A stretch of 25,669 nt of DNA from a virus, in the IMG/VR virus record IMGVR_UViG_3300026209_000010, positions 1 to 25,669 of that record. One strand, given 5' to 3'. Below are positions 416-2,267 of the stretch, piece by piece. The notes beneath the pieces were generated by a model that saw nothing but the letters and a program-made list of their open reading frames with translations, was not told the origin of the DNA and searched no databases. The translations under genes and the position numbers were made by a program. Position 1 is the first letter of the stretch. Every line of letters starts with the position of its first letter.

Positions 416-952
416 ATGGCCCTCAAGTACATTGGATCTGTCTTAAACCTTGTTAACGGTTACTCGCAGGCAACTCGACCTAAGAATGTGGGTCAGATGA
501 GCGAACTGATTAAACAGTTTAGAAAAGAAGCTGATAGTCTTGGATTGGATGTGAATTCTGTTGAGGATTGGGAAAAATATTATGATGGTAAAGATAAGAT
601 TGATGCGGCAACGGATAAAGTTTGGGTAATGTTTCAAAACCTTGTCGAAAATGCCAAAAAGACAACAAAGGAAGACTGTCGTGAATGGGTTCAAGATCTT
701 GTTATTAACAAGACACATTCTGGTTTACAAATTCAAAATGACGTGCTAAAATCATGTGCTGATGGCAAATCCTATCGTCTTGCTAACGTAGAGGAAGAAG
801 CAAAAGGTATTGATGGTTTCATTGGTGATGAACCAGTGTCTATCAAAGAAAAAAAATATAAGAATAGTATTAATGCTGGTAAAGAAAAGATTCCTTATCG
901 CATCATCTATTATACTAAAACAAAAAAAGGAGTACTTAAGATTTATGAATGA
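416..952 (+). CDS. MjaI-family type II restriction endonuclease
   Basis: A 178-residue protein that I recognise as MjaI-like from two conserved blocks: ATRPKNVGQMSELI near residues 19-32 and KGIDGFIGDEPVSIK at 130-144. The second has the spacing of a PD-(D/E)XK active site (Asp132, an acidic pair at 138-139, and Lys144 in a SIK strand). MjaI of Methanocaldococcus cleaves CTAG; specificity here is not shown by the sequence. The ATG at 416 is the first usable start after an in-frame stop at 392-394. The final 8 bases overlap a DNA methyltransferase, the usual arrangement for a type II restriction-modification pair. Possible roles are cutting host DNA for nucleotides or excluding rival phages; both are inference. 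An alternative is an uncharacterised nuclease of the same family with another site. Confidence 0.78.
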   Translation: MALKYIGSVLNLVNGYSQATRPKNVGQMSELIKQFRKEADSLGLDVNSVEDWEKYYDGKDKIDAATDKVWVMFQNLVENAKKTTKEDCREWVQDLVINKTHSGLQIQNDVLKSCADGKSYRLANVEEEAKGIDGFIGDEPVSIKEKKYKNSINAGKEKIPYRIIYYTKTKKGVLKIYE

Positions 953-1694
953 AATCATCTGTTCAGATTCTCTCGTTGCACTGAAAGAAATGGATGATGA
1001 GTTTGTTGATATTGTTTTGACTTCACCTCCATACAATTATGGTATGGAGTATGATTCTCATGATGATGCTGGTGATGCTGATGAATATTTTGATCAGATC
1101 ATGGAAGTATTTGTTGAGTGTAAACGTGTTCTAAAGTCTGGTGGTAGGTTAATTATTAATATTCAACCAAATTATAAACAATACTCACCTACTCATCATA
1201 AAATTACTGAAAGAATGATTTCTGAAGGTATGATCTGGCGAGGTGAGATCATTTGGTTGAAAAATAATATTAGAAAACTAACTGCTTGGGGTAGTTGGAA
1301 GTCACCATCATGTCCTTATCTTTCATATCCATTTGAATTTATTGAGGTGTATAGTAAAGATACTTTGAAACATCCTGGAGATAAAGAGAATATTGACATT
1401 ACTAAAGATGAGTTCATCAAGTATGTTAATGGACATTGGTCAATAGCACCAGAAACAAAGATGAAAGAGTATGGACATCCAGCAATGTTTCCAGAAGAAC
1501 TGGTAGAACGTTGTTTGAAATTGTTTTCTTACAAAGATGATGTTGTTCTTGATCCTTTTAATGGAGCTGGAACTACTACATTTGTATCAAATAAATTAGG
1601 TAGAAAATATATTGGTATTGATATGAGTGAAACTTATTGTGCGATAGCAGAAAAGAGAATTGCAAAATTTAATCCTCTTGCCAAATTTTTATAA
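945..1694 (+). CDS. beta-class DNA methyltransferase (N4-cytosine type), partner of the MjaI-like endonuclease
   Basis: A 249-residue S-adenosylmethionine-dependent DNA amino-methyltransferase. The catalytic motif TSPPY is at residues 26-30 and the SAM-binding block DPFNGAGTT at 203-211, so the order is catalytic then SAM-binding, the beta class. SPPY is the form typical of N4-cytosine enzymes, although N6-adenine cannot be excluded. The frame is open further upstream, to ATG 810, but the extra residues overlap the endonuclease in another frame and look spurious. ATG 945 is preceded by AGGAG at 928-932 and overlaps the endonuclease stop by 8 bases. The expected job is to protect phage DNA from the neighbouring enzyme. 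Orphan methyltransferases are common in phages; the adjacent nuclease is what makes this a candidate full system. Confidence 0.88.
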   Translation: MNEIICSDSLVALKEMDDEFVDIVLTSPPYNYGMEYDSHDDAGDADEYFDQIMEVFVECKRVLKSGGRLIINIQPNYKQYSPTHHKITERMISEGMIWRGEIIWLKNNIRKLTAWGSWKSPSCPYLSYPFEFIEVYSKDTLKHPGDKENIDITKDEFIKYVNGHWSIAPETKMKEYGHPAMFPEELVERCLKLFSYKDDVVLDPFNGAGTTTFVSNKLGRKYIGIDMSETYCAIAEKRIAKFNPLAKFL

Positions 1695-1796: not shown

Positions 1797-2267
1797 ATGA
1801 AAACAATACCAGGGATGGATTGGGCTAATATTTACAGCCCATTTAATGTAGGATTGGATGATATTTTCAATCGATTAGAATCGATGAGTGCTCATAATGT
1901 CACGTATCCTCCATACAATTTGATTAAATCTGATGATCATCATTTTGAAATAGAAATTGCTCTAGCAGGATTTGGTAAGGATGAGATTGAAGTGACGACA
2001 GAGACTAATGTTCTTCGGGTTTCTAGTAAATCTAAAGAGAAAGATAAACGAGAGGTTCATTATCTTCACAATGGATTATCGAAACGTGCTTTCCAGAATT
2101 CATGGCAGTTGGGTGATGATGTTAAAGTTTGTGACGTTACCTTCCGAGATGGTCTTCTTACTGTTAAACTGGAGAAAATTGTTCCGGAGCATCAGCGTCG
2201 GATCAGTTATGATATTAATAATACGATCTCCTCAAATGAGGATAGTAAGGTCTTATTGACAGAATAA
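1797..2267 (+). CDS. hsp20: small heat-shock protein (Hsp20/alpha-crystallin family)
   Basis: A 156-residue protein with a short N-terminal arm, an alpha-crystallin domain at about residues 40-135 (strands around HHFEIEIALAGFGKDEIEV, NVLRVSSKSK and GLLTVKLEKIVPE) and a short C-terminal tail. The A-G-F-x-K-D-E-I and G-L-L-T-V-K-L signatures are typical of the family. Small heat-shock proteins hold unfolding proteins in a refoldable state. T4-like cyanophages commonly carry one close to gene 43, as here, and a role in virion assembly or in stabilising replication proteins is often suggested. The ribosome-binding site AAAGGAGA lies just upstream of the ATG. A sigma70-type -35 box for the next operon sits inside the last codons. 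Confidence 0.9.
   Translation: MKTIPGMDWANIYSPFNVGLDDIFNRLESMSAHNVTYPPYNLIKSDDHHFEIEIALAGFGKDEIEVTTETNVLRVSSKSKEKDKREVHYLHNGLSKRAFQNSWQLGDDVKVCDVTFRDGLLTVKLEKIVPEHQRRISYDINNTISSNEDSKVLLTE

Follow-up and report, generated by a model that had tools for sequence, protein, structure and literature searches.

Restriction–modification (R–M) systems directed at CTAG are known from MjaI, BfaI, MthZI and their relatives (PMC5867850, PMC4752239). The MjaI endonuclease has been cloned and characterized (PMC4752239), and M.MthZI, M.BfaI and M.MjaI are β-class CTAG m4C methyltransferases (PMC5867850). The locus described here lies in a 25,669-nucleotide stretch of viral DNA (hereafter the window). It resembles these systems in that the product of its nuclease gene (R) falls in the Pfam family of MjaI (PF09568), most phage genomes that carry R show a CTAG signature, and the methyltransferase gene (M) encodes a β-order TSPPY partner.

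Other described systems share parts of this arrangement. T4 DenA and DenB are alike in possible role, as phage nucleases that tell self from host DNA. T4 discriminates self by hydroxymethylcytosine, whereas the cyanophage R, an unrelated protein, is proposed to discriminate by CTAG methylation or absence. PacI-type solitary endonucleases (PMC3488263) occur without a methyltransferase in a site-free genome, as R does in cyanophage S-SM2 and its relatives; PacI is bacterial, whereas the solitary cyanophage R is found in lytic phages, with its M-containing ancestral state visible in the gene tree. In the part of the account drawn on here (PMC7253447), chlorovirus and marseillevirus R–M likewise sets a virus-encoded nuclease and methyltransferase against host or rival DNA, but the viruses are eukaryotic, the enzymes unrelated (CviAI-type, GATC, in marseilleviruses), and neither a site purge nor a solitary stage is described in that part.

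The nuclease–methyltransferase pair and its setting

The features of the locus are as follows.

416..952, plus strand: R, type II restriction endonuclease of the MjaI family (PF09568), 178 aa, predicted specificity CTAG
945..952, plus strand: 8-bp overlap of the R stop and the M start, seen in the sequence, R first and M second
945..1694, plus strand: M, β-order DNA methyltransferase, 249 aa, predicted to act on N4 of cytosine in CTAG
1797..2267, plus strand: hsp20, right-hand neighbour of the pair, given for context (Pfam HSP20, 1.9e-16)

The R open reading frame (ORF) runs from an ATG at 416 to a stop at 950–952. The original prediction, made from the sequence, had called 416–952 an MjaI-like nuclease, and the HMM search that it proposed bore this out: the 178-aa product matches Pfam RE_MjaI at 1.4e-44 (152.3 bits, above the curated cut-off of 22.7), residues 9–173 aligning to profile positions 3–162 of 164 in a whole-domain match. 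Further matches are to PADLOC REase_II (1.7e-45) and phrog_14722 (4e-77); a search of NCBIfam assigned no family. By these profile matches, R is a member of the MjaI restriction endonuclease family. It contains RPKNVGQMSELI and GIDGFIGDEPVSIK, both named in the prediction, and a PD-(D/E)XK-like motif, GID133G...S142-I-K144; R121, E127, E128, G131–G134 (including D133), K144 and Y148 are invariant across 47 homologues, the window R included. The R model (pLDDT 90.6) has a C-terminal α/β core. Against the PDB and viral models it gave no Foldseek match at E ≤ 0.001, the weak matches being to splicing endonucleases, restriction endonuclease 3ndh and Holliday resolvases, and the R profile found nothing relevant among solved structures. 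The modelled fold adds little to the identification.

M (ATG at 945, stop ending at 1694, 249 aa) matches Pfam N6_N4_Mtase at 1.9e-45. The two motifs expected of it are present, TSPPY (motif IV) at residues 26–30 in the N-terminal part and DPFNGAGTT (motif I) at residues 203–211 in the C-terminal part, and both are invariant across 15 homologues. Since TSPPY comes first and DPFNGAGTT last, M is, by its motif order, an N4/N6 amino-methyltransferase of the β group. The nearest solved structures are the putative modification methylase 2zie and the DNA cytosine-N4 methyltransferases 8s9m and 8s9n (1e-20); because they include N4-cytosine enzymes, N4-methylcytosine is the likelier product of M.

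The strong family matches indicate that R and M are true genes rather than chance ORFs. They are separate genes that share 8 bp (945–952), the predicted overlap of a restriction enzyme with its methyltransferase; most phage pairs likewise overlap slightly. The earlier description of a phage-borne type II R–M pair finds good support in the family matches, in the conserved motifs and in the close linkage of the two genes, which holds over dozens of contigs.

The phage pair differs from its cellular counterparts. Across 80 cellular loci, MjaI-family nucleases were accompanied, where a partner was found, by β-type methyltransferases of a TSPPYPMIEMWD type (~300–390 aa) or a TSPPYWQLKDYG type (~430–460 aa), and never by the phage-type M. 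Cellular pairs are often convergent or have M first, whereas in the phage pair R comes first and overlaps M. The phage M (TSPPYN[YF].M.YD, 249 aa) is 24–35% identical to the cellular partner types and, on these comparisons, is a third partner type of MjaI-family nucleases. It lies outside the TSPPYPMIEMWD group that accompanies cellular MjaI/BfaI-type nucleases (~24–31% identical, distinct motif context), a group that we read, independently of those enzymes' own sequences, as the M.MthZI/M.BfaI type; although outside it, the phage M may still act on CTAG. A more distant M (~56% identical) adjoins a different ~285-aa protein in other phages, indicating that partners are exchanged.

Two side observations concern such partners. 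The ~285–300-aa protein directly upstream of the ~56%-identical methyltransferase (L231:3838–4701, L235:4010–4870, L239:1509–2354 and L241:4962–5873) belongs to no Pfam family in the two cases tested and is a candidate new restriction endonuclease. Bacterial loci L041, L055, L058, L062, L072, L077, L082 and L114 carry two tandem MjaI-family nuclease ORFs with two β methyltransferases, one per type.

Downstream of the pair lie hsp20 and genes for a B-family DNA polymerase, UvsX and a gp41-type helicase; judged from these genes, the window is from a T4-like cyanophage. Among polymerases, that of the single-cell virus AG-345-P14 (79%) is the nearest to the window's, followed by that of S-CAM3 (76%). 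The pair had been placed in a T4-like replication region, and this setting is supported by the downstream genes, whereas the clamp-loader and regA genes are absent from the window; they sit upstream of the pair in S-CAM3. The pair had also been thought unusual. It is less so, being already annotated in S-CAM3, S-RIM32 and S-H9-2 (R alone in S-SM2), and the R–M gene pair itself is thus already known from kin. The S-CAM3, S-RIM32 and S-H9-2 pairs overlap in the same order and are 68–71% (R) and 87–89% (M) identical to those of the window. In S-CAM3 the pair stands between regA and hsp20, and the order R–M–hsp20–...–polymerase is that of the window, with hsp20 as common right-hand neighbour. In S-RIM32 and S-H9-2 it stands between psbA and a thioredoxin gene, and in S-CAM1 and S-PM2 regA is followed directly by hsp20, an empty site. 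The differing locations and empty regA–hsp20 sites indicate that the cassette moves, in keeping with the proposal that the pair is mobile.

A survey of viral contigs yielded dozens of R+M pairs that share one gene order and a short overlap; R occurs without M in several contigs, and M without R in two (L199, L200). Contigs L006 and L007 carry a pair identical to that of the window. The M-alone genes (L199:1423–2178 and L200:973–1728, 90% identical) are flanked by a purC-like gene on one side and the polymerase region on the other. Their contigs are CTAG-poor, and may represent an orphan-M stage or have R elsewhere. Upstream of R in the window, positions 169–336 encode an AbrB/MazE-like 55-aa protein, just under the Pfam cut-off, a possible regulator.

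CTAG content of genomes with and without R

Bacteria avoid CTAG more than any other tetramer, whether or not R–M is involved, and because many of them do so for other reasons (PMC4687349), R-less sister phages matter as controls. CTAG was counted over whole records, many of them genome fragments, and compared with a maximal-order (trinucleotide-based) Markov expectation. The seven R-less records gave observed/expected ratios (O/E) of 0.96–1.12 (S-CAM1 642/575, S-PM2 490/506, Syn1 631/651, S-RIM44 634/657, ACG-2014e 557/555, ACG-2014j 551/571 and AG-345-P14 253/257), and one further R-less fragment, the partial genome G012, was low (20/68, 0.30). O/E fell to 0.07–0.40 in eight of 12 R+M records (S-CAM3 76/424, S-RIM32 32/428, S-H9-2 61/450, G008 16/83, G009 73/202, G010 70/177, G011 10/131 and G015 6/48), the remaining four being little depleted at 0.65–0.85 (G014 63/79, G016 25/38, G017 23/27 and the window 50/58.8). 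N6_N4 methyltransferases of every kind are missing from the R-only records. In six of them, 635 kb in total, CTAG is absent against ~1,317 expected (S-SM2 0/290 in 190,789 bp, G002 0/106, G003 0/304, G004 0/165, G005 0/325 and G007 0/127); the seventh, G001, has 9/107, and these nine are confined to a single 2.8-kb stretch.

That stretch (G001:C1:19853–22623, L423–L424) of an otherwise CTAG-free contig fits what a recent import, or a chimera, would produce. The low R-less fragment G012 (L464–L465) has TGCA 23/203 alongside its CTAG deficit.

Of all tetramers, CTAG showed the strongest depletion in 7/7 R-only and 8/12 R+M records. Records with and without R differed (Mann–Whitney p = 1e-4), as did R-only and R+M records (p = 3e-4), residual CTAGs persisting with M; neither value is corrected for phylogeny. 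Codon usage as the cause of the depletion was ruled out by synonymous-codon shuffling, which gave 244 ± 13 CTAGs against 0 present in S-SM2 and 446 against 471 in S-CAM1. Phages with and without R are interleaved in the polymerase tree: S-CAM3 groups with S-CAM1 (O/E 0.18 vs 1.12), S-RIM32/S-H9-2 with Syn1/S-RIM44 (0.07–0.14 vs 0.97), and the window with AG-345-P14. This interleaving indicates that depletion tracks R rather than lineage in the first two groupings. The depletion or absence of CTAG in R carriers suggests that the phage R family is very probably active on CTAG and that M protects CTAG, for which the restriction of residual CTAGs to records with M is indirect evidence.

Could host restriction instead drive the depletion, the phage genes being merely acquired from such hosts? 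Phages commonly avoid the sites of host R–M (PMC6286503), and the avoidance of CTAG by bacteria irrespective of R–M points the same way. However, O/E is ~1 in R-less sister phages that share the host genera, and depletion is complete only where R stands without M. Among 386 sampled Cyanobacteriota genomes, moreover, we found no convincing MjaI-family nuclease (one weak partial match), so restriction by such a host enzyme is an unlikely cause; the search concerns the MjaI family, and CTAG nucleases of other families may exist. On these grounds we consider a host origin of the depletion very unlikely.

Loss of M, and the window as an exception

All cyanophage R proteins form one clade in the R tree. 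The R-only state arises at least twice inside R+M lineages (the S-SM2 group and L281/L282), and a third R-only group is distant. Solitary R has an ω of 0.07–0.11, indicating purifying selection and hence that the nuclease itself pays. The simplest reading of the order of events is that R+M was gained first, that imperfect protection then led to a partial purge of CTAG, and that M was lost once the genome was CTAG-free.

Selection on solitary R also bears on whether the pair is a selfish addiction element of the post-segregational killing type, of no benefit to the phage. R–M systems are known selfish elements, and the pair varies in location and moves horizontally between phage backbones. Addiction requires M, yet R persists without it under the same selection in at least three lineages, and with a lytic phage there is no segregating cell line that could be held hostage. 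We consider addiction very unlikely.

We lean, with some reserve, towards a broader reading in which a captured CTAG pair has repeatedly become a stand-alone weapon of lytic phages, marine and other. Methylation would have given way to a genome-wide purge (S-SM2 0/~290), after which M was dropped and R kept, self being marked by the absence of the site; in cyanomyoviruses without denA/denB the weapon would destroy host or rival DNA, and the window would represent an early, methylation-dependent stage. As far as we can tell, the CTAG purge with loss of M is unreported, a provisional statement of novelty: no link between cyanophage R and CTAG loss was found in a search of freely accessible published papers. 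The main text of the S-SM2 description does not mention restriction, and that of a study of viral site avoidance does not mention cyanophages.

Within the window, CTAG occurs 17 times in the first 8 kb, where at least 15 had been noted, and 50 times overall, a normal level against the 58.8 expected. The original prediction held further that, if CTAG is the site, the phage relies on methylation, not avoidance; this fits the window, whereas most R+M relatives avoid CTAG and R-only phages have essentially none. S-CAM3, S-RIM32 and S-H9-2 avoid CTAG strongly and the window does not, and the window R is far more divergent from theirs than is the window M. R of the window is ~67–72% identical to its clade-mates, which are mutually mostly 83–93% identical; its branch in the R tree is 0.48, compared with mostly 0.04–0.2, and its dN/dS is 0.14–0.31, compared with 0.05–0.08 in most clade-mate comparisons.

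The window R might thus be decaying or have switched specificity, leaving M as an orphan protective methyltransferase, a reading that we think unlikely but not negligible. The long branch and a dN of 0.20–0.24 against clade-mates, while M is normal, would fit it, as would a P145E change beside the catalytic-type K144 together with ten other departures from the phage consensus. Comparison with G016 (dS 0.19 for M, 1.19 for R) suggests that R was swapped or recombined; CTAG is not avoided, and orphan M genes without R exist nearby (L199, L200). On the other hand, R is intact and keeps all invariant residues (D133, K144, E127, E128 and R121), its ω is still well below 1, and an identical R occurs in three contigs (the window, L006 and L007). 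The G014 R is constrained (ω 0.06 vs S-CAM3) yet CTAG is unavoided there, a pattern that recent acquisition also explains. A search for another depleted motif as a changed site found none in the window, whose 25.7 kb give no power for six-base sites. We consider it probable that the window pair is a working one, either protected by methylation or recently acquired.

In contrast to most of the marine cyanophages examined, CCGG (12/13), GGCC (12/14) and GTAC (81/91) are not avoided in the window; its phage may have another host, or its DNA may be modified.

Proposed mechanism and biological role

Our overall explanation, which we hold to be likely, is that the window carries a phage-borne, CTAG-specific type II R–M pair with a probable use against unmodified host or rival DNA. 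From family membership, linkage, the CTAG depletion tied to R, nested loss of M and purifying selection on solitary R, we infer cleavage, methylation, the base modified, virion marking and the biological target in the following scheme. R, translated first and coupled to M via the 8-bp overlap, would cut unmethylated CTAG, while M would methylate CTAG in the phage's own DNA, probably to N4-methylcytosine, so that virion DNA would already be marked on entering the next cell. Unmarked host chromosomes (~0.9–2.3 CTAG/kb, thousands of sites) would be cut, as would the DNA of co-infecting cyanophages lacking the pair (~500–650 CTAGs each), supplying nucleotides, silencing the host or removing rivals. 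In most relatives, imperfect protection would also select CTAG out of the phage genome; with the purge complete, M would become dispensable and R would be kept alone, self now being marked by site absence. The window phage would have methylation-only protection, a recent pair or a changed R.

The most likely role of R is predicted to be degradation of unmodified host or rival-phage DNA. In host DNA chosen by psbA identity and genome size, CTAG density was 0.91/kb for sampled marine Synechococcus-like and 2.31/kb for Prochlorococcus-like sequences, close to expectation. The genes denA, ndd and denB are missing from cyanomyoviruses; according to one review, host DNA degradation in these phages may be inefficient or may proceed by a not-yet-described route (PMC2984593). 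Some of them degrade host DNA within hours of infection (PMC7852597). R may be one method of host DNA degradation in its carriers. It is neither necessary nor the only method, because host DNA is also degraded by phages from which R is not known, Syn9 among them.

Its main role might instead be the exclusion of co-infecting phages, or marker exclusion favouring the spread of the R gene, a possibility that we entertain tentatively. The many CTAGs of R-less cyanophages speak for exclusion, as does marseillevirus R–M, which degrades rival virus DNA and not host DNA (PMC7253447); in chloroviruses, by contrast, endonucleases packaged in the virion help to degrade host DNA (PMC7253447). CTAG is abundant in the DNA of marine Prochlorococcus and Synechococcus and cyanomyoviruses are without denA/denB, which also counts against exclusion as the main role. 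Rival exclusion and host breakdown appear about equally likely and are not mutually exclusive, and sequence alone does not separate them.

The pair is thus a candidate for self/host DNA discrimination in T4-like cyanophages, which lack the modified cytosine and DenA/DenB of T4, a question left open in the literature. Phages with no R, R+M and R alone form a natural series for measuring what a viral restriction enzyme costs its carrier and what it gains it, and cultured S-SM2 is a ready test case. The recognition site was predicted from genome statistics alone, and restriction-site avoidance by a phage may reflect its own enzyme rather than host defence.

Sites other than CTAG were also depleted in individual phages. 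ACG-2014j carries an overlapping pair annotated as R.RsaI and a methylase (L342:2508–3786), which was considered as an independent control and rejected: GTAC shows no depletion (0.41 vs 0.46 in ACG-2014e), whereas TGCA does (386 vs 727 expected from R-less phages). The R.RsaI site annotation is doubtful, and the real site may be TGCA. Syn1 (GU071105, L379–L388) and S-RIM44 (KU594607, L389–L398) contain no GTAC in ~191–193 kb, with 574–575 expected, compared with hundreds in S-PM2 and S-CAM1; this absence suggests either strong restriction by the host or a further solitary nuclease directed at GTAC. Finally, the R+M cyanophage contig G014 (L458–L459) has GACC/GGTC once in 40 kb against ~143 expected, which points to a second restriction activity.
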